Under the pieces are notes generated by a model. It was not told where the DNA came from, searched no databases, and was given only the letters and a program-made list of their open reading frames with translations. Both the position numbers and the translations under genes were made by a program. A stretch of DNA of 64,000 bases from Lineus longissimus. Its lineage: Eukaryota > Nemertea > Pilidiophora > Heteronemertea > Lineidae. This document shows, piece after piece, positions 10,786 to 58,959 of this stretch (its first letter is position 1; every line of letters starts with the position of its first letter). Location: the NCBI RefSeq assembly GCF_910592395.1, contig NC_088320.1:3720001-3784000 (forward strand). Reading direction: 5' to 3'.

Positions 10786-13700
10786 CTATGAAAACAAGTT
10801 GGCATTCTCTTCTGAATCATAATTCTGATTCTCTGTATCAGAACTTGACTGCCCAAATCCTTTCGTACTAGAACCAGAGCTCCCAGTCCGGCGGTGGGTA
10901 GTTCTCACATTATCCACACGGTGGAGTCCCCGGCCTAACTCCACACTGATTGGCACACGTTTATTCATGGCATCGCCACCGTTACAATCATTATCAATAT
11001 TCACATAGTCCTGTATCACCTGATCGACATGGAAATTATTCCCACTCGTTTCCACATTCTCCAAATCTGGTGGGCTTTCATTACTATCACTTGCATTATT
11101 TGCATCTAACTTTGTGTCCATAACCGGTGTGGGCTCTGCACCATAATGGTTGTCGTTTATACTAATCTCATCGCTATCCAAGACGTTGTGAGCAAATTTC
11201 AAAGTCCCTTTAAGAACATCTCTAACCTGAAAGAAAAACGAGATGATGATAAGATACAATAAGACAAAATCGCCAAGAAATTAAGATTATCGCCATCCAT
11301 CACACCAAATTAGGTCGCAAGTCGGCTGGCCTGGTATTGAACAATCAATTGACATCTAAAAGGGTTGAAATGCCTCCACCCTTTATACACCGATCAAATT
11401 TCTCAAATGATACAAACCTGTTTAATGCCAGCCACCGCCAAATATATTTCATCTTCACTTTCAAGCACTGGTTGTTTCAAAAGCATATTCTGGAGTTTTT
11501 CTAAAAGATAATACATGGAGATCAGTAACCAGTACTTGAGATTACATAAGCCAGTAAATCCAATTGATAAAGTTGTATCAAACATTTTATCCAGTCACGG
11601 TTTAGGCCTCAACATTGGTCAACGGAAGACAGTCCGAAGCATTTAACACAAAATGATGTGTACATATGTGTCGTCTTTTTAGACCATCTAAGCAATGCCA
11701 AGCATAAACCTACCAATATGAATGTCCATCTTGCTAGCACAGTATTTACACATAGCCTCCATGTCATTGATGCGACCTTGAAAAAAGGCCGAGTCATTCT
11801 GAACCACAATGTTCCCAGAGTCCTGCGGCAAAGAAGGAAAGAGAAAATTCATCAAAGTACCACCTCAGGGTGACCCTAGGATATGCTAACAAAGATGTTT
11901 GCCTCATATAAAGAGAGGGGAAAAATGCAACTCGTCATCTCCTTTTCAAATGTTGCCAAATGCTAGAAATTGGTCTCCTGCTTACCGTCTTGCGATGTCT
12001 TTTCACCTTTGACTTATTCGGCAGTGATTTAGACTTTGATCCATTAGCACCATATTGCTTCTCTGGGGAGAATTGTTCCATTTTCTGGGGACTAGCATTC
12101 GATTCGGATGATCTCAGGCTGAGCGTTTCCATTCGGGCCAGACTCTGCGCAGAGACGGCAGGTCTGACGGGAGTATCTGAAAGATCATCGCGCATGGTCT
12201 CCACCATGGACAGACTAGCACTCGATAGTTTACGATGCGCATCTTTCTGGGGCACTTCTGAAAATGAGAAAAAAATCAAGTCCACGTAAATATTAATTTA
12301 ACATGTTTAAAGAGTATAAAAGGAGCATTTGCATTTGTGTTTTCTGACTAACAATATTGTCAACAAATTAGTTACTGTAAATAGGTATTTTTTAAAATGA
12401 CCAACATGACCACTTTCACAAAGCAGTAAAATAGGCACAATTTAATTTGCCGCACACAATATGAATGCGCAGTAGTCATGATAATGAAATCAAAGAGACC
12501 TTTCGAATGGACATGCCAAATAATACAGTTAGCAGACATAGAGAGTGCTAGTCCATAATGTTAGATTTACAATGCAGCACGCACTGTTTTGTCAAACTAT
12601 ATGAACTAGGCCTAATTCAGGAGGCAAACATCACTTCACGTTTGAGGGAATAAATCCGTCAAACTTCAAAAATTGAATAACATTCAAACACGTGCAGTAC
12701 TATAGTGATCTGTGCAACTGCCTGTTAGAACATGGTTAATAGGTGCACTATACTACATCTACAACTACGTAGCATTATGCTGTTGTCTAGTCTAACTACA
12801 ATACTAACCCGTACCTGGTGAAACGTCCGTTAGTAAATTCATAGGTTCACTGGTGGATTTGTGAAGTGGTTGGGAGGAAGCGGATAGTGTCAGGCTCTTC
12901 GGCCGTGACGACGACGAGTTATTCATTTTTCGTGTTAGCGATGAGAAGCCGGTGAATGCGGAGGCTTTGAATTTGTTAGCAAGGTCGACGGCCGAGACTA
13001 GAATGGAAAGCAATGTGTGTGTGTGTTAGTAACGTACAGATAGGGATGGGTTAGAAGGTCGGGAAAATACGTGTAGTTTGGTAAGGGATGGTCAAACAGG
13101 TTGGTGATAACTGGAATTTCATATCATAATAATGTTAATGGCATTTTCTTGATTGCAATTTCGTGATTTGAAATGTGATGTGATGACTTTTGACGTTCTG
13201 TCTAGACGGTTGGTGGAGGTGTGCATGAGGCTGACCAACAAGAACACACATGACACCTTTCATGCTTTTCTAAACTCTATTTGAACTTTTGTTAGTGGTA
13301 AGACAAGCTCAGTGTCGATTTTTCATTGGTTTATAGGGGCTTACCACTTCGCCAAGGCTTTTTACGGTTTCTTGCTGAAATACAGCATTTAATCATGTGA
13401 TATTATACCTATACCACCATAAACGGATAGCAGATGAAAACTTTTCCTTCCTTTGAAACGTACATTTTACCCAAAGCGAAGGAAATATACACCCAAAAGA
13501 ACCAAACTGATCGAACAAAATGACCATGACCAAAACGAAATTGATCCAAAACCAGATATTTGTTAAAATAAACATACATGAACTGTGTGATTGTCTTGCA
13601 TCGGGAGATAAAAAATACCCATGGAAAGACTTTGGTCTTGGTCGGTGTGATACTCTCAGACCTGAATTGATTTGATACAACATAGTGAATCCGATGTACC

Positions 13701-16700
13701 TAAATATGGCCAAAACTTTCAACTTCCTTTGACTTGAAAAAGCATGTCACAAGCACATACGGCTACACATACAGGAATTTGACAACTGAATTTCTGCTGA
13801 TATTGTTTGTATGGTCATTAGGATAAACCTCAAATTACGTTAACATTTCTGGGCTGGCAAGTTGGGTTCGGTCTGCACTTGGTCTACCCCACCAGTCTTG
13901 AGTGGATAACCAAGAACCGCCAGCTTAGTATCAAATTCAAAAACCATTTGGGATGATATTGTTTGTATGGTCATCAGTTCCCAAGAGGAGAGGAGAACTT
14001 TGAAGCAGGTAGGCCATGGCCTTCTCTATAAGGAAATATGAATGAACAAGTGGTCAGAGGAGCATTTTTACAGAGCAATTCCAAATCTTCTTTTCAAAAT
14101 CCTACCTTTGTTATGTTTGGCACTTGATTTGTTTGAGTTTCCACGACTACTCGAACTTGTACTTGTGACTGGAGATGTTACCGATGGTTGAGGTATAAAC
14201 CGCTGACACGTGTAGTTTGGTGGTCTCGGGTGTATATTCGGGTCCCGTAGGTACATGGCCTTGTCTATGAGGTAGTGGACATCACCTACAGCGGGGTAGC
14301 GCATCAGGATGCCAAGGCAGCTCGGGTAGTCGCTGGTCAATACTAGAAGGAATGTTCGAATGACAAAATTTCTCAAATGTTCTGGGGCAGAAAGAAACCA
14401 CTGTTCAAACCAACCCTCAGCTCCCTCCATGTATTCCCCATTTCATGAAAAAATGGCACAGCATGCAAAAAATTCAAAATGGCTGGAAGAAGTTGTCAGT
14501 ACTTCACATCAAATGCCACCAAAATAGCAAAAGCAATGATTATCTAAGAACATTTTTAAAGAATACCACAAAATTTCATTTTCAACTTACACAGATCTCT
14601 GATGTAGAGGAGCATGGCCACAAAGATATAGTCAACCAGATCAAAGGCAATACTGTCAGCGAATATGGCGTCCCAAATCACGAGGAGGTCCTGCATGGGA
14701 AACTCACGACCAAATAATAATCTCAACCACCGACTGAAATAAAGAATGCAGTGTCAAGAGTTACTTTGGAAATATGGTATCAAAGGGGTACGCAGTTCTT
14801 ATATATCATGGGTCAGGAAAATTGAAATGCAGTTAATGCCGTAGTGCAGTTACTATGCACGCCTGGTGCATACGTAAAATATCAAACCAATTCGGACAAT
14901 TTGCAGAAGAATTTCAGCAAAACTTACATTCCGTATATCTGAGGTGCAATATCCAATCTCTCCAGATGCATGTGTAATTCTAAATCGTGTTTCTTCAATA
15001 TGTAGTCCTGGATGCGAGTGAGTTTGTTCACGATCACGTTAGAAGGCTGCATGTCCTGGGGCCGCGTGAACGGCTGTGCCACCAAGATAGCCTCGGCTTT
15101 GGTGGGGGGCGTGATCTCGCGTGATTGATACCAGGGCTCTGATGTCTCCATCACTTGGCAGAACATAGAACTGGAATGGAAACAAAATAGGGTTGATTTG
15201 TTTTTGAAATTTCGTTTGTTGAATGGTACGACAGGAAGACTCCTTTTTATCTTTGGCAGCAACGAGACTGGGATCGGAACATTTTTTGGAACTTTTTGGT
15301 AAATTTTTCAGGGGCAGCTGCCCTTTTCCTTCATTCACTGAGTCTCGAATAGTTTACTTACTAAGCATCGTGTTCTAGGTAAGTTGTATCAAGAAGCTCT
15401 TGCACAACATCTCTGAAAAACATGAAGCATTAAATTAAACACGCTGCTTATACCTCATTTGATATACAACTTGGTTTATTCAGTACGTCTTATGTACACT
15501 CAAAGAAGTTGAAGGTATGGAAATGTTGTCTCATAGAAATTTTGCAAAAATCATTTACTTCTGCTGATAAATGGTGATGGCAGAGTGAAATCAAAAGGCT
15601 TGGTTAATAATGTATTCAAATGTAATCAGGTGTAGAAATAGCATGTATAGTGAGGGCGTTTACCTAGTACTAGTAGCAAAAGCACAGAATTGATGTCACT
15701 AAAGTTATACCTCATTGTCAAGCCAAGTAACTCTAAAACTGCCTCTGTGACTCTGCAAAAGTTCCTTAACATTCTGGCTAAATACTGAAGCTTGATAAGA
15801 AAATTCTACCAAACCGGATCATTTATAGATGCATATTTTTTAAAGCAAAATATCAAGACGAGCTTTAGATATTTTTCTATGATAATTGTCAGAGAAGAGC
15901 AGAAAAGAGCCTGTCACCTTCAAAAGCATAATGTTACAGCAGGAGAGGAAAACAATTGTTGTTTTTGTAGTCTTAAGTTGTGCACTGCATGTAGAGGGGT
16001 CAGCCACCAACGAAAATAAGAATGTTGACAGAGATGTTAGCAAGAATTCATGAAGACTTTATGAATTCTTGATGTTAGGCATAGAAATAAACATTGTGCA
16101 AACCTTTCTGCAGTCTCTATCATACTGAAATCAAAATAACCAAAACTTATCACAGATAAACCAACAGAATTGTGACAGACAAGGAATAGACTTGGGGAAA
16201 AGTACTTATGGCCAGAAAATGAATTATCGTAGGAGTTTGATCAGGGCTTTTTTGGCAATTGTCAGTCAGGCCAGCGAGTAGTAGGGGAGTTACTCTAACA
16301 GTGACAGCAGTAAGTGGGATAGTAGGCAGGTTTCGCAACTCCTACAAAGAGTTCCGAATGACAAAGTATGAAGTATGCAAGTGTACTTTTTTTGGAAAAT
16401 TTCCCCGATTCCTCCCACTTGAACTAAGTATTTAAAAACAAAGATTAACGACCGTCGCGTGAATGAATTAGCACCGATCTGATGACACCACTGACCAGTT
16501 TGAGTTATACGAGACATTTGTACTTCTCAGGAATTGAAACCTGCCCGACATTTCCCTTTGAAGGAAACATTAGGACCCAGCTAGGGGAATTTCATTCTAA
16601 ATGATTAGTGGGTAATATATGGTAACAGATCAGCGAGGGAATAAACGGATTACCCCATAGGCTTAAAGAAGTACAGTTTGCCATCTAACTACATGGTGCT

Positions 16701-19700
16701 ATTACTACTATTAGTACAAGTATTTCAACTTACTCGACAGTGTCCAGCTCACATGCATGTAGGAATGCCTGATGATCGCAATGGAGTACGAATATGAGAG
16801 GCGCCAGCAGCTCGTGCATGCCCTGAAAAGAGGAGATGGAACCGTAATTTTATATTCTGGTTTGGAGAGAGTTTTATTCAAATTACTCATTTGACAATGA
16901 ACATAATTGAAGAAGAACTTTCAGGTACCAACATTACAATTTGCAACATTGAAAGGCTTACGCCATTTGGGGACACTGATAAAAGACCTCAAGTTCAGGC
17001 AACAAGTAAGCTACTTGCAAAGAATGCAAAACCTACAGAATTCAGAAATACTGGGGAAAATGCAAGAAGTGGCTGAATTTTCTGATTTTACACGGCGGCC
17101 CCTTATTGCAATTTCTACAAATAGATGTGTGCACACCATGCTAGAGTGGGCGAGTCTAGAGCAAACACGCTGATCTTCATCATGTTCATGCAAAGTACAC
17201 AAGCAAAATGGCTGATTCATTATGAATTGGGGCAACCACAATCATCATCTTTTTCATAAGAATACAAAGAGGACGTTTGGGGAGGGGGGGTCATGCGTTC
17301 TTTGTTAGGCTTAACTTTGTTATCTCAACTACGGTAGGCAATGGCAGGAGACAGGTCAGGGTATTAACTTTGTTAGTTTTTTCTAATATCTTAGAATTAT
17401 AATTTCAGCACCTGTCGATATAGAAGGCCGTAATTTTCCCGCGCTGTGATGAACAGGATGTTGGTCATGATTTCTCGGATGGAATCGTTATGGAAGAACT
17501 CCAGCTCGGGAAAACTAAAGAAAACACAAGAAAAACACACAAGCTAGTAAATACTTCAAAACAACAAATGGAGAGAAACTGCTTATATGACTCCCAAGAC
17601 TGACTGCCAAGAGAAATGAAAAATCGTCAAAACTTTTGATCAGCCAAAACCACATGCTGGAAACATCTGGCTCAGCCAGTTCCAATGGCGTCATCGTTAC
17701 TTTTTTTGTTTGGCACCAAAACAAAGCTCACCAATTTTCTAATACTTTTACTAAAATTTCGCTTCAATGTATCAAAGGCTGAGAAAGATATAGTGTATGT
17801 CAAATTATGTCAGATTTGAACACATCATTTCTCATGGCTTGCAGCGATATGTGCATATTCAGGTGGAAAGATGTTGTCCCTAAGGCCAAACAGATATAAA
17901 GACAAAACAAAGTTAAAAAACTTCGATAAATTTTTGATTGAAAAATAACACACAAACACTAACATCAAATGTAGGACAATTGAAACAATTCCAGGAATTG
18001 GGATTTCTCGAAAGATATCACAAGGGGGCAGAAATAGAAGTAAAATGTAGATGACTGAAATCACCTATGCTCTGAAACCCATGTTGCTGAAAATGGGGTC
18101 AAGGACACATTGTGTAGAGAATGGGAAACGGAAATGGCACATTCTTCAAAATACGAACCAAGACAGTGTCCCAGTGTAAGGGCAAAGTTATGGCTAACAA
18201 AAATGTTGAAGGGGGGGAGGCATGTAGAGGTGTCATGCATGTCATGTCATGAGGCAGGGAACCAGTTACTTCAGATGTTTCCCAATTCCAGAAATGGTCT
18301 AGTACTAGTCTTTCCTCTGTGCAATTTGAGATGTGAGGGTAGTTATTTGGCTGACTTAACAGAAGAAGAGAGCAGTGTTCATGCAGAGGTGATGCAGTAT
18401 AGAATGAGTGGATGCCATGCTGCAGCTTCCCTTCCAAACAACCATTTCTGAATCACTTTACTACTTCCTAACATCTGCGTCTTCTTAAGTCTAAGATTTG
18501 TGCATGATTCCAGGCAGGCAGTGCTGTAGCATGCTACACTAGTGACATACTTGTCTTGCACAGTTGAAAATGAGATCGCCGGCAGGTGGCAACTGTAGAA
18601 CATTTCCAAAGCTTTAACTGGCAAGCTTGTCATCAGGGCGGGTATCCAGTGCATAAGCCGGCAGCACTGTGCCCAATTCTTAAAACTTGTCAAGACAAGT
18701 CTCAACTGGGCAAGACAAGTATGGGAAATTACATCAATAAAACTTACAAGCACACAACACATACAATTTTCAAAAATCCACCAACATGCGTCACATCTCA
18801 AAAAGCACAGATTCCGACACGAGAAAAAGACATTCGAAAATAAGTGCGACAATGATGAATGGTTCAGAGCGTATACCTGTCGATAAGATAAATCTGGGTT
18901 TATTTTAGCATAGATGAACAGGCTGTCGACCATGACGGTACGCACAAAGTCTGAGCTAAAGAACTCTAACTTTGGGTAGCTGTTGGAATAGAAAGGCTTG
19001 TTAGAGATTTAACCTTGACAAGAAAGATGTCAACGACTAAGAAAAATGTATACAACTCGAGGAGAAACAGGGTCACTTCTTGGGGGGGCTTTTAAACTGG
19101 AGGTCCACGCTGCATACTTGAAAGAGTACAGCTGGGGTGATGCCCTTTTGATAACAATAATCCTATCAATCTTAATCCAGAAACATGGTAAAGCCACAGA
19201 TATAGGTCATCACACCACTAGTTTTGGTGAGCTCAGCTGTACCATTACTAATACAGCGGTCTTGCTAGTGCTCCAATAAAATCAAAGCAGACTCACTCCC
19301 TTCCAATATATTATGCAATACAATTCATAAACACGATAAAAGTTTGGCAATACTCACGTCCTAATCACGTCTTGTTTTATGGTCAACCTCAGCTCGTTAT
19401 CTTGGAAGAATCGGTTCCATGGGCTCTGAAGAAAAGAAATCACAAAGTTATTGCTGGCTTGAGTCGCAAGGTTATCAGTAGTTCTAACCATATACATGTA
19501 TTGTTCTGAAATAGGGGGAAGCTGAAGCCCCAGAAATATTGTCTTGCCATTTACAGCACTCTCAATCAACACAATATCAGCATTAAGGCTAATTACAGCA
19601 CGTGCCTATAATCCCCCTTTTAATCAGGCTCCCTACCTCTTGGTCCTGTGAGAGTGGATTGTTAAAGATCAGATCTTGATCTTCCTCCATCTCTTTCCTA

Positions 19701-22341
19701 GGGTTCAGAATCAACTGGAAAAGACAAACAGCTTTAGAATCATGCAAAGTATTCAAGTGGTCATGGTACGTTTTTTTTAAAGCATTCATTTTTAAAAGCA
19801 GTCATGGTGGGCACCTCAATGGTCTCTCATAATGTAAAACAATGCCTTACTTTCTCCTTCAACTCTGCATACTCTGCTCGCAGCTCTCTTGTTTTCTGGA
19901 TCCATTTTGTGCGGTCTTCGGGAAGCACATCAAGATACAGCTGCAATCAAATACGCAAAAACAAGACATTTAATACTGCATGTGAACTAAATTACACCAA
20001 ATGCGAAACGGAAGTCCGGATCAGTGGCCTTATTTTTATAGCTACATTCAATTCCCAGAAGCCAGCTTAATTAAATTTCCCAACAAAATCTCATTTCATT
20101 AATTCCTATGACCATCTGTTGTTCACTGACAGCTGACATCTCAAGCATTGTCTGATAAATCGATGAGATTGCGGGGTGCAAGTAGGCCACTGGCTGCATT
20201 TCACATTCAGGATACTGGCCTGCTGGATATTTGCTGACACTGACAGTGACAAAGCATTGTTACATATGCTGCCTCACATAATTGGATTGGGACGCAATGG
20301 TCTCTCTTGACTAAGATACAGGCTGGCAGTACCCAAACCAGGTAGATGACAACTCTTTCAAGAGTCGTAGTGTACAGGCTTTTCCCACAGCCTTCAATTC
20401 AACCACATCAATGCAAAGTTGTAATTATATTTTCTTATCTGAGGTCAAGTTGAACCTTACCCGCCAACAAACACTCCTAAATCTGCTGCTGCGGAGGAGG
20501 CCATCTAGGCCAAGACTCCTCAATCCCTTCAGGTAATCTTTCAAGCCAAACAGCCTCTCCCACTCATCACTACAAAAGACCAATGAGACTAGAGAGAGGA
20601 GGGGTATCAATTGATATTTTTTAATACTGTTACTTTAAGGGTAGCGTTACTCTCCCATGCTGTGGTTCCCTGTCCTTGAGTAGTTGGTCACATTGAACTG
20701 TGGAAAAGGGCTAGACAATTTGAACCTCTTCAGATTGGTTCAAGAGTTTATCAAATGTAGACGATAGGAAATAAGTACCACTTCAGCCCATGTACACATC
20801 GTGAGTTCTCCAAGAGTGCTGGCATGCAGGAAATCAAGCAATACTGCTTCCCGAGCCAGCCTACATCACTCTGTGTGCATTCTGCAGATTGCATGAAAAA
20901 TCAATAAATCTTAGTTGATAAACATAAAAACAGATCAGTATTCAGTTCATGGCAAAATGGCAGAGGATGTTTTGCAATGAGATCAGCTGCGAGATGTAGA
21001 CAATACAGTCACAGTGGTAAAAAATGACCCCCCTGGAGGACAAGGCAGTGGGTCAGAGAATCCTGCTTGAGGTGCAAACAGGGGGAATGTACAACCCCCC
21101 AGTGAACACAGAGCAACACAGCAATTAGGTTGACCACCACAGTGAATAGTTATAATTGTATCGGGTCTTTTTCGGTTGGCCTACATTTTAATGAAACCGT
21201 CGTCACATCTCATGAATTGGTCACCAGTAGAACATGTAATATGGTCTTATTCTTAACAACTCTTGATATATTTGTTAGCCCTAGATTCATTCCCTAATTG
21301 GATTGTGGCCAGTTAGTTCATGAAATCAGATTATTTCACAACAATCGACCCATTTGAAACTCTAGGGAGAATCAGAACAAGGTGAAGTCATGATATCACT
21401 GACATAGATCATGCAGAAAGAACATGCTGTGTTACGAAACTGAATATCATCGAAAAGTGAACTGACTTTGTCCTCAAGACCAGAATAGGTTGCGCCTACT
21501 CACCAATACGAATTTGAGAAGCTGACGCTCTGAGTATACTCCATCCTCTTTTGTTCCTGTTCCGTCAGTGCCAGGCCAGGGGCGACATGATCCGCACCTC
21601 CATTTTTAGAGGGCCGGGAATGTGGAAACCTCCCTGAAATCAAGAAAAACACAATTACAAAATACTGAAATGCAGTAGACTTCAAATATTGTTAGGCGTT
21701 GGTGTTGAAGCCCGTCTATGATACCATAGAACTTGCATGATCAATTTGAATATCTCAGTCAACTGAATAACACTTAACAGTCATTAGTGAGGAAAGAAAA
21801 TAGCGCTCAATGCAACCAGTAGATTGTTTGGTATACAGTGCTAGTCATCCTCATGTTCTGCTTACCGCTTTAGGTGTCACAGTGGTATTTACATGCAAAT
21901 TGTCCTTCTATATTGTGGCTAACAGCTGTCTGTCACTGCCAGACTGTCACATGCTTTCTAGGCCTGGCAAAACATGCTGCACCATGTGATTGATATGCAA
22001 ATTGCTGCATCGATTTCAACAGTGCAATATTGAGTTATGAGTATCAGTAGAGTATGAGATACATTATTATTATGCTTAAATTGATCTTTTTCTTGACCTT
22101 GCAACTGCAACTTGAGGAAGCACCGGGCACAAGGAAAGTTCTATATTTTTTATGTCTCATTCATCAAGGACATGATTCGATCATAGAAACATGATAACCT
22201 ACCATTTGCATGCGGCTCCTTTTCACCAAAGTTATCCAGTGCATTCAGTATTTCCTGCTTCGAGGGGACTGGGCCATTGTTCTTGGGCTTCTGGATTTGG
22301 AGGCGGAATTTTGACATGATGTTTCCACTCTGGCTGCTCAT
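10786..22341 (-). CDS. TBC1D5: TBC1 domain family member 5-like Rab7 GAP
   Basis: Exons in transcript order: 22203-22341, 21504-21633, 20461-20569, 19851-19940, 19637-19714, 19358-19425, then 18877-18979 or 17412-17514, then 16734-16822, 15362-15412, 14928-15170, 14591-14733, 14106-14342, 12815-12997, 11986-12257, 11714-11822, 11418-11500, 10786-11226. With one alternative exon this gives about 855 aa. The human TBC1D5 pattern is clear: an LC3-interacting W-E-R-L at about 93-96, a retromer-binding NNPLSQ loop at about 174-179, the arginine finger IKQDVIR at 198-204, the glutamine finger Y-R-Q at 237-239, then GMHELLAPLIFVLHCDHQAF, IAPQIYG and FGREFPMQDLLVIWDA. A C-terminal coiled-coil region (MEAMCKYCASKMDIHI) follows. 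The family inactivates Rab7 on late endosomes with retromer and switches to LC3-positive membranes in autophagy. The C-terminus ends ENANLFS. The start ATG is preceded by a tiny uORF. Confidence 0.92.
17412..17514 (-). other. TBC1D5 alternative exon 7B
   Basis: This is the second copy of exon 7, again 103 nt with identical entry and exit phases, encoding TFPELEFF through LLYRQ. By eye about 18 of 35 residues match exon 7A. It is closer to the human protein, sharing TFPE, ARE, N and LLY-Q, so it is probably the canonical form. The acceptor is CTTTAG and the donor GTGCTG. About 1.36 kb separates it from 7A. If both copies were spliced in, exon 7B would be read out of frame and hit TAA after eight codons. 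Confidence 0.85.
18877..18979 (-). other. TBC1D5 alternative exon 7A
   Basis: This 103-nt exon enters in phase 2 (completing the AC carried from exon 6) and leaves in phase 0. It encodes 35 residues, from TYPKLEFF to LSYRQ. It covers the TBC-domain segment between the arginine finger in exon 6 and the GMHELL exon, and supplies the glutamine finger Y-R-Q. It is the more diverged of the two copies when compared with human TBC1D5. An AG acceptor (18980-18981) and a GTATAC donor flank it. Confidence 0.85.
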
Positions 22342-55405: not shown

Positions 55406-57227
55406 TCACAATTCTTTGTCTCTGTGCCTGTCCACCACATCACTCGTACCACCTAGCGTTGGAAAGTGCATCTCACTCTGAATATCGGGTGCCGCCCGTG
55501 GTTTCCCTCGTCTTACAGGAGCGACAGGGGAATTTGCCTCTTCCATCATTGCCTTCCTCAAGCCTGGCGGGATGTATTTTGTGGGAGCTTTTGCAGGTTC
55601 GTCTTTTTTCTCTGCTGTTTCTTCAGACGGTTGGTCACCAGCTTCTATAGACAATGGGGCTATAAAAAATATTTAGAGCTAAACTGAAAGTACACAGAGA
55701 ATATGCCTCTTTCCAGATAAGTCATGAGTGGCCCTAGTGTAGTACAATCTGCTGTGGCAACCAAATTATTGACTAATGGGGTCAACCATGATGTTGCAGA
55801 CAGCTGTGAGTCAGAATATCGCTGCAGCATCTGGTTTATTCTGTCGTCATGGCCGATTTGGTGTCCAAAACATTGACCACCAACTCTGCCACATTGCTTC
55901 TTCTTGCAAGATATTTTAAGAGGTGGTTAAAAATGGAGATGACTGGACACTGGTATATGTACTGTCTAGGTCAACTTGGTACAGGTAGTTTGTTTCAGCA
56001 ATAGGAGAATATCAAGTGAAGTATTTTTCATTGCCCAGGATCAATTCATAGGTGGAACGTCACTAGAACGTTGGGTCATGGTCATACCTGATTCTGTCGG
56101 AGTCTGAGATTGTACAACGCCCGCCCATGGACCTTGGTGAGTGCTTTTGATGCCAGCAGTTTCACCATCCTCATCTTCAGCTTGTTCCTGGTTTTCCCTG
56201 TCTTGTTCCGATTCATCTCTGCAAAGAAAACTCAGGATTACTTCATTTATTAGATCCATACTAATATATCATCCAGGTTTATGCAATTGTACGAGATACT
56301 AGTATGACTTCATTCGGCTCATACCATTTGTCTTCTTAGACATGTTAATGACACCAAAAGACTTTACTTACACTATTTGTAAAGTTTTTATTTTAAGACC
56401 GCTGTAGTTCACTTCTTCATTGTCAACTTCTATCCACTCTTCCTCTTCCTGCAGGATAAAGAAGGCTGTGATGTGAGGAAGAATTGACAAGACAATGCAA
56501 ACAGATGAGGCAATCATTGTCGGGGAGATTGTCGGTCTATCTTAACTGATCGTCATCTCCCAACATCACACGAGGCAGTCACAAAACAACCCAACTTTAG
56601 CTTGTACAGGCACTATGAATCAACGGTACACTGTATTTTGGTTGCTGCTCAGTGCTCGGAATTTGTAGCCTTCAACGGCTTCCTCGGACTCAACTGGTGG
56701 ATTGGCACAAGGTCAAGGATATCTTCTCCGTCTTTATAATCAATCATTGCTGCCGGCAGTACGAACGCATACAGACTACGACGATGTAGGGTAGAGCGTC
56801 CGACCCTGGCAGTGTTTCTGCCAGAAATAAATTCAAGGGGGGGCAAAACCATAATTTTGCAGAAAATCCTGGTCAAAACAACAAATTTTGCCTGTTTTTG
56901 GACAATTTAGGGGGGGCAACTGCCCCCCTTGCCCCCCCCCTCTGGGGGAAACCCTGCCTGGCCCTAGGAAATCTGGTTTTGGGGGCCATCTCTCATCTAT
57001 CTACTCTGAAAAGGCCTATATAAAGAACACACCTCTTTCTTAGTACCATCAGCGACATTACTCTCATCTGATTTCTCCTTGGGTTTCTTCTTCTTTTTTG
57101 GCTTTTCAGATTTCAGAGGTTGTTTTCCATCCTCCAATAAATCTGCCGCTACGAACTTATTTTTCTTGCTTTTGCCCTTTTTATCTTTCTTGGCGAAGAA
57201 ATCGTCCAAACCATCATCATCAGCCAT
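55406..57227 (-). CDS. CDV3: CDV3 homologue
   Basis: Exons in transcript order: 57033-57227, 56372-56448, 56088-56218, 55406-55659, giving 218 aa. The start MADDDGLDDFFAKKDKKGKS matches the LDNFFAKRDKK opening of human CDV3. The conserved core EEEWIEVDNEEVNYSGLKIK, the GPWAGV motif, YIPPGLR and the D-I-Q-S-E-M-H-F-P-T-L block follow in the human order. CDV3 is a lysine-rich, largely disordered cytosolic protein whose biochemical role is not settled. The protein ends HRDKEL where human CDV3 has RKDKEM and may continue. Here the stop codon lies inside a GTGAGT donor consensus, so a longer spliced isoform is conceivable but its exon was not found. A 146-bp transposon remnant lies in intron 1. 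Confidence 0.88.
56810..56956. mobile_element. Short TIR element with G/C hairpin in CDV3 intron 1
   Basis: The ends resemble each other in inverted orientation (GGCAGTGTTTCTGCCAGA against GGCAGGGTTTCCCCCAGA, about 15 of 18). CCTGGC flanks both ends. The interior contains AGGGGGGCAACTGCCCCCCT, a near-perfect hairpin at 56909-56928. It looks like a small non-autonomous DNA transposon, possibly hAT-like; the superfamily is a guess. Confidence 0.4.
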
Positions 57228-57598
57228 GATTTCAGAGCACTTTTATCGTATTTTAGGGTAGAATTTGGGTGAATTTCGCAATAAAACTATTCAATATGGA
57301 AATGCACGTTGTTCCGAGTACACTGATGCCCTGTACTTTTGGTATGCAGATAGTGTAATAAATGTGTTCAGAGAACAAGCCACACTTACGGACTGTCAAT
57401 AGGAAGGTTTCGCATGCTTACATTTAACGTTACGACATAGAACGGGATGAGTTTGAGAGTTTGAGTTCATTTTCTTGGATAGAGAGTTAATTTTGACAAA
57501 ATCTTAATAGCACGACGTTACAAGTCTTCACCAGCCATTGCTGTGATACTTTCCATCATTTTGCGCCGTTGAAAATTCCACATCATGCTCAAGTAAAC
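57228..57598. promoter_or_regulatory. Probable CDV3 upstream region
   Basis: This sequence directly precedes the CDV3 start codon on the minus strand. CDV3 and PDSS1 are divergently oriented, so an undetected PDSS1 first exon could also lie here, but no mitochondrial presequence-like exon could be defended. No known promoter element was recognised. Confidence 0.3.
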
Positions 57599-58265
57599 GT
57601 AAACGCTGGTTCTTCAAAACGCCACAGTGGCAAAACCGTTAGAAGCTGGGGCGCCACCGGCCGGTCTCGATATATTGCTTGCACAGGAGATGGTATATCG
57701 CAATTATTCTCTTTAATAATAATAACATGAACAAACCCGAACACATCACGCACAGCTAGTTCTTCAAAACCCACAATGGCAAATTAACCATTAGAAACTG
57801 GGGACCGGCCGGTCTCGATATACAGCATATCGATATGAACAAACCCGTACACATCACGCGCAGCTAGTTCTTCAAAACGCCACAATAGCAAAACCATTAG
57901 AAACTGGGGCGCCACCGGCCGGGTCTCGATATATACCACGATATGAACAAACCCGTACACATCACGCACAGCTAGTTCTTCAAAACGCCACAATGGCAAA
58001 ACCATTAGAAACTGGGGCGCCACCGGCCGGTCTCGATATACACCACGATATGAACAAACCCGTACACATCACGCGCAGCTAGTTCTTCAAAACGCCACAA
58101 TGGCAAAACAATTAGAAACTGGGGCGCCACCGGCCGGTCTCGATATAAAACCACGCTATGAACAAACCCGTACACATCACGCGCAGCTAGTTCTTCAAAA
58201 CGCCACAATGGCAAAACCATTAGAAACTGGGGCGCCACCGGCCGGTCTCGATATAGATATCGGTG
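57599..58265. repeat. 108-bp tandem satellite, array 1
   Basis: About six head-to-tail units. The landmark AAACCCGTAC (or close variant) sits at 57733, 57841, 57949, 58056 and 58164, giving a period of 107-108 bp. Each unit includes GCTAGTTCTTCAAAACGCCA, GGCAAAACCATTAGAAACTG and GGCGCCACCGGCCGGTCTCG. Because 108 is divisible by three, long minus-strand frames made of a 36-residue repeat stay open, but nothing else suggests coding. Confidence 0.9.
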
Positions 58266-58267
58266 TC

Positions 58268-58405
58268 GATAAAGGTATCGGTTTTGCCATTGTGGCGTTT
58301 TGAAGAACTAGCTGTGCGTGATGTGTACGGGTTAGTTCATATCGATATGCTGCATATCGAGACCGGCCGGTGGCGCCCCACCCCAAGTTTCTAATGGTTT
58401 TGCCA
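58268..58405. repeat. Inverted satellite unit
   Basis: This is one satellite unit in reverse orientation relative to array 1, reading GGTTTTGCCATTGTGGCGTT and later GAGACCGGCCGGTGGCGCC. It joins array 1 tail to tail across ATATCG-rich sequence, creating a large palindrome. Confidence 0.85.
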
Positions 58406-58559
58406 TAATATGCGATCAAAAAGTGACAGAAATGCTCGTGATGTCAGTGTGTATTTGACAGAGTGTACTGTAACATGCCGAATGTTGTCAAGCTTGAGGT
58501 ATGAGATTTTGCCTTATTCTTACTCATTTAGGCCGAATGATATTCAAAAACACTGTCCA

Positions 58560-58870
58560 CTATGGCCGGCGCGAGTGGACAAAATTCAGAATTATGCCGG
58601 ATCTCGTGAAATATGCCGCAGCAGAATTCAGAATTATGCCACGGCATAAATAGGAATTGTGTTGTGGCATAATTAGACCAATCAGAAAGTGCCAATCATT
58701 TCATTTATGGTGCGGCATAAATCGCACTTCCGTCCACAAGTCCTATTTATGCCGCGGCACAATTCACGAGATCCGAAGTTTTGATTGGTCGATTTATTGT
58801 GCACCACAATTCCGATTTATGCTGTGGCCGTGGCATAATCCTGAATTCTGTCCACTCGCGCCAGCCATAG
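58560..58870. mobile_element. Palindromic MITE, 311 bp, with 39-bp TIRs
   Basis: The left end CTATGGCCGGCGCGAGTGGA and the inverted right end CTATGGCTGGCGCGAGTGGA match over about 39 bp with a few differences. The interior is made of further ATGCCGCGGCATA-type palindromes. TCCA precedes the left end (58556-58559) and follows the right end (58871-58874), consistent with a 4-bp target-site duplication. A related uninterrupted sequence at 59955-59990 shows the empty site. There is no coding capacity. Confidence 0.85.
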
Positions 58871-58959
58871 TCCACCGTATATAAAAATATATTACATTCC
58901 GATAAATAAGTTTGGATGGTCAAGTTTGTTGTTTGTAGAATTCCGCTAGGGTGCTGGGG

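Follow-up and report, generated by a model that had tools for sequence, protein, structure and literature searches.

Does the TBC1D5 gene of Lineus longissimus encode one Rab GAP or two? Within the window analysed here, a 64-kb stretch of genomic DNA, the gene, whose enzyme turns Rab7 off on endosomes, carries two copies, A and B, of the exon that connects its two catalytic fingers. A preliminary description of this DNA had proposed that these exons are used in a mutually exclusive manner. We ask how far the reading frame, the relationship between the copies and the signals around them agree with this proposal, and which other readings of the locus deserve consideration.

The gene and its product

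The exon borders of the gene model were picked by eye to fit the reading frame and AG/GT splice sites. The features discussed below are as follows.

10786..22341, minus strand: the TBC1D5 gene from start codon to stop, with 18 coding exons when either A or B is used, encoding 862 residues
19637..19714, minus strand: shared exon e6, where residues 168-193 (e6-e7), the match to the VPS29-binding TBC1D5 peptide, begin
19358..19425, minus strand: upstream shared exon e7, which contains the IKQDVIR arginine finger and ends two bases into the next codon
18877..18979, minus strand: exon A (7A), 103 nt, residues T-YPKLEFFSSDFVRTVMVDSLFIYAKINPDLSYRQ
17515..18876, minus strand: the A-B intron, 1362 nt, with nested inverted repeats
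17412..17514, minus strand: exon B (7B), 103 nt, residues T-FPELEFFHNDSIREIMTNILFITARENYGLLYRQ
16734..16822, minus strand: downstream shared exon e8 (GMHELLAPL...), entered in phase 0 directly after the YRQ glutamine finger
16104..16124, minus strand: exon e9, 21 nt, containing the TGA-TAG that is reached if A and B are both skipped

The IKQDVIR sequence in e7 is what we take to be the IxxDxxR arginine-finger motif. The assignment of the gene to TBC1D5, also made in the preliminary description, is borne out by a domain profile, a peptide match and the spacing of the fingers. The RabGAP-TBC domain (PF00566) scores 86.9 bits in the protein with A and 87.9 bits with B, against a Pfam cut-off of 25.2. 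In a PDB search the top matches by E-value are other TBC proteins (5.5e-09 and weaker), while the sole TBC1D5 chain matched is the 27-residue peptide of 5gtu, which corresponds to residues 168-193 (E 5.3e-06). The available portion of PMC5105194 describes for TBC1D5 a VPS29-bound loop and two inserts unique to this protein, of which insert 1 binds VPS29; by way of the 5gtu peptide match, the VPS29-binding insert is found here as well. The arginine and glutamine fingers are 35 residues apart with either A or B. The protein is therefore like vertebrate TBC1D5 in its TBC domain, its VPS29-binding insert and its finger spacing (R169 and Q204 in human), and the human R169/Q204 double mutant is catalytically inactive, according to the accessible text of PMC6031384.

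We searched the genome (391,118,348 bases in 30 contigs) for further copies of the gene. Three of the five matches returned are the TBC1D5 locus itself and the other two are weak (E 0.24 and 3.4), so that, judged by the matches returned, there is a single TBC1D5 locus in this genome.

Exon anatomy and reading frame

Exons A and B both sit between the shared exons e7 and e8. Each is entered in phase 2, with the AC that ends e7 and the first base of the exon forming a split Thr codon, and each is left in phase 0; the borders are AG/GT and the frame is open in both. All six junction coordinates given in the preliminary description are correct, and the equal length of 103 nt and the phases that it reported hold at both exons.

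With A or B alone, one frame is kept for 862 residues. If both are included, a TAA is reached after exactly eight codons of B, just as had been predicted, so that 76 nt of B and eleven further exon junctions lie downstream of the stop. Skipping both exons was said to shift the frame and to reach a TAG in exon 9. The shift and the exon stand, although the first stop is a TGA and the TAG follows it directly. Since the frame is lost and an early stop reached whenever both copies or none are present, a transcript for the full-length protein has exactly one. The earlier statement that exactly one exon is usable is thus right for the protein, on which the frame enforces exclusivity; mutual exclusivity in the RNA would be an extrapolation from this. 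The claim that the segment links the arginine finger to the YRQ glutamine finger, with YRQ kept in both copies, agrees with the sequence. The location between the fingers was right, and the 'exon 6' that was said to carry the arginine finger is e7 in the present numbering.

Common origin and constraint

The two exons are identical at 55 of 103 nucleotides (53%) and at 18 of 35 residues, including the split Thr, close to the half of all residues estimated previously. They have LEFF, LFI and YRQ in common, whereas the stretch before the glutamine finger differs at most positions (AKINPDLS in A, ARENYGLL in B). The corresponding segment of human TBC1D5 presumably resembles B more than A.

Could this similarity have arisen by chance? 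The control set consisted of the open AG-N103-GT segments of the window, 36 on the minus strand and 57 on the plus strand, i.e. 93 with A and B included. Each copy is the sole relative of the other in this set, with a score of +86 for the other copy and of -3 for the best of the unrelated segments. When the residues of A were shuffled, 0/100000 shuffles reached the observed A-B score. On these two grounds we reject chance similarity. The same AG-N103-GT scan found no third copy of the exon within the 64-kb window.

The 48 differences between A and B fall on codon positions 1, 2 and 3 in the numbers 15, 13 and 20. By the Nei-Gojobori method pN is 0.34 and pS is 0.87, which is saturated, therefore dS cannot be computed. 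When B was allowed to drift neutrally by 48 changes in 20000 runs, 14563 runs acquired a stop and were set aside, and the observed similarity was reached in 0/5437 of the stop-free runs. The Pfam RabGAP-TBC profile was also applied to an 86-residue test piece, scoring 43.8 bits with A and 45.5 bits with B. Three of eight stop-free drifted controls score 22.0, 18.1 and 14.4 bits, and five are without a TBC match. From the saturated synonymous sites, the drift runs and the Pfam fit it follows that the duplication is old and that the protein reading of the pair has been kept. The pair looks constrained in the sense that purifying selection is seen between the two copies; the present-day hold on each copy is a separate matter.

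Splice signals

A and B are the only two of the 18 donors in the gene that do not have G at +5 (gtatac and gtgctg, respectively; Fisher p 0.0065, for a pattern noticed post hoc). Their U1 duplex energies, -7.2 for A and -6.8 for B, are mid-range among those of the 14 donors examined (-4.9 to -10.8). As these energies are ordinary, 'weak donor' is too strong a term for either exon. By eye, neither resembles a U12-type donor. The acceptors were compared by their pyrimidine count over the 20 bases that precede the final three. That of A has 12, the fewest of the 18 AG acceptors, while B, e15 and e18 have 17 each and e16 has 18.

Comparison with known exon pairs

The defaults with which WebScipio recognizes mutually exclusive exons are a length difference of at most 20 aa and a relative BLOSUM62 score of at least 15%, and it also requires a conserved splice-site pattern and reading frame with no in-frame stop (Pillmann et al. 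2011, PMC3228551, in the portion available). Exons A and B have AG/GT borders, phases 2/0, open frames and a common length of 103 nt, and their relative score is 86/178, or 48%, which is our own division of ungapped scores and not WebScipio output. They also exclude one another by frame shift, as the TAA in B illustrates.

Homologous mutually exclusive exons have been validated in human (Hatje et al. 2017, PMC5740500). In the accessible text of that survey, the RNA criteria are reads that join each exon to the flanking exons while bridging the other, and reads that join both are admitted only where this shifts the frame. Lengths not divisible by three occur in 377/629 human clusters (60%), yet reads with both exons were found in only 83/377 of these, which indicates that in most cases another mechanism contributes (PMC5740500). 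Neither the term TBC nor the term TBC1D occurs in the main text of the survey.

As far as these sources describe them, the human and WebScipio pairs are like ours in being adjacent, equal in length, frame and borders, homologous and located inside a folded domain, and those of the 377 human clusters also in having lengths that three does not divide. The human exons are RNA-validated, and in PKM, a metabolic enzyme, the differences between the isoforms have been measured, whereas our pair is known, and its two forms are predicted, from sequence alone. In other respects PKM is a similar case, an enzyme with two isoforms from two mutually exclusive exons, 9 and 10 (PMC6823945, in the part available).

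The splice events described for human TBC1D5 in the accessible parts of PMC8370746 and PMC10615768 are exon exclusion or skipping, and differ from A and B in that no homologous exon pair is involved there. In the passages of open-licence full text examined we found no description of a mutually exclusive exon pair in TBC1D5, that of vertebrates included, and met none in TBC1D genes. This kind of exon pair is known in other genes; its location in the Rab GAP TBC1D5 appears new, as far as this search of the open-licence literature reaches.

Proposed explanation

The anatomy of the pair, its frame logic, the homology of the copies and the protein constraint between them are established. We consider it likely that they reflect an old tandem exon duplication in a single TBC1D5 gene that has been kept as a mutually exclusive exon pair. 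Each transcript for the full-length protein would carry exactly one of A and B, and an mRNA with both or neither would run into an early stop and should go to nonsense-mediated decay. The exchanged part would be the split Thr and 34 residues, from the arginine finger through the glutamine finger. Both fingers, the distance of 35 residues between them and the VPS29-binding insert would be the same in either form. Two results count against this explanation. The U1 duplex energies of both donors are ordinary, and the codons of A (-0.09 per codon) and B (0.00), scored in frame, rank low within the gene. The second objection is tempered by e8 (-0.06) and e12 (-0.11), exons whose best-frame codon scores are comparable.

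What might the two forms do? As the match to the VPS29-binding peptide lies in e6 and e7, which both forms share, retromer binding should be common to the two, while catalysis or the choice of Rab should set them apart. One may reasonably guess at an altered Rab preference or activity, and we would predict that the two forms dock on retromer alike and that the GAP rate or the Rab target differs. The form with B is probably the default and that with A the regulated one, because the acceptor of B is pyrimidine-rich and that of A pyrimidine-poor. More tentatively, and with doubts that outweigh our confidence, we propose a splice switch that would rebuild the wall between the catalytic fingers of a retromer-bound Rab7 GAP, giving a fast timer and a second form that is slow or aimed differently, both docked on retromer.

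If both forms are made, then the GAP arm of the retromer-associated Rab7 cycle is set by alternative splicing. They would also constitute a natural pair of enzymes, unlike only between the fingers, with which TBC turnover and Rab choice can be probed. Given its age, the exon pair could be common to nemerteans or to more of the lophotrochozoans.

Choice between the exons

How could one exon be chosen over the other? In steric exclusion the distance from donor to branch point is below 50 bp. This is one of several mechanisms and is not required for mutual exclusivity. The A-B intron, with its 1362 nt, is too long for it, which leaves frame and decay, splicing factors, or RNA structure.

Compatible with a mutually exclusive pair is the idea that competing RNA structures set the choice, rather than splicing factors together with frame and decay. 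The nested inverted repeats of the A-B intron, at 18316-18811, are in its favour. They comprise a 22-nt repeat at 95% inside a 21-nt repeat at 90%, and their scores of 19 and 15 are above those of 60/60 shuffles (maxima of 14 and 13). However, inverted repeats scoring at least 16 are found in 5/25 blocks of the window, the block of the nested repeats included, and the nested repeat may be either a mobile element or an RNA structure. Around B, a 12-nt motif occurs twice downstream (17311-17322 and 17364-17375) and has a near-complement upstream (17901-17916), with which it could pair and so loop out B; yet this pairing scores 11, the shuffle average. Whole folds are unremarkable as well, with z of -1.51 (8/100 shuffles as good) and -1.44 (3/20). 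For duplexes between the three introns, compared with 15 shuffles each, the energies of introns 1x2 and 1x3 beat all 15 and that of 2x3 was reached by 3/15, although we judge global long-duplex energies to be a poor measure. Overall, we regard control by RNA structure as unlikely.

Elsewhere in the window there is a strong inverted repeat at 56395-58930, with a score of 80 where most blocks have 10 to 13. This is perhaps a mobile element.

Other readings of the locus

Rather than encoding a second form of the protein, exon A could be mainly a frame-breaking 'poison' exon, with B making the protein and A tuning the level of TBC1D5 through nonsense-mediated decay. Joint inclusion has the required consequence, a stop in B followed by 76 nt of that exon and eleven exon junctions, and the acceptor of A is the one with the fewest pyrimidines (12/20) among the 18 AG acceptors. 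A poison exon has no need of a good TBC segment, though, and A on its own keeps the frame, the length, YRQ and the Pfam score. We therefore hold this reading to be quite improbable.

Exon A might instead be a relic, i.e. a duplicated exon that is no longer spliced and is decaying. Its poorer acceptor would fit. Against this, A has suffered no stop, no frameshift and no loss of AG/GT, and its protein has been kept despite saturated synonymous sites, which is unexpected of a relic of that age. Such a relic seems very improbable to us.

An assembly artefact, in which a second haplotype or a paralogue was stitched into the intron, is conceivable in that five haplotypic duplications were removed by hand in the published Lineus longissimus assembly, if that is the one used here (PMC8593623, in the text available), but it is exceedingly improbable because 53% DNA identity with saturated synonymous sites is far past allelic difference, one TBC1D5 locus is found among the genome matches returned, and direct repeats between the surroundings of A and B do not exceed 23 nt. 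Both a pseudo-exon and a haplotype artefact are disfavoured by the constraint between the copies, the Pfam fit and the single locus.

Further observations on the exons

Beyond the donor of exon A, 165 codons follow in frame without a stop (18382-18876, minus strand); at each of the 17 further exon ends examined, a stop comes within 22. Composition alone gives a probability of about 8e-5 for such a stretch. We considered a retained-intron isoform that ends after A and rejected it: the codon score is non-coding, the intron is without AATAAA or ATTAAA, and Pfam gives no match at E up to 10. A search of NCBIfam, a prokaryote library, returned no match. Finally, exon e9 (16104-16124, minus strand) is an in-frame microexon of 21 nt with the donor gtttgc, and could be optional.
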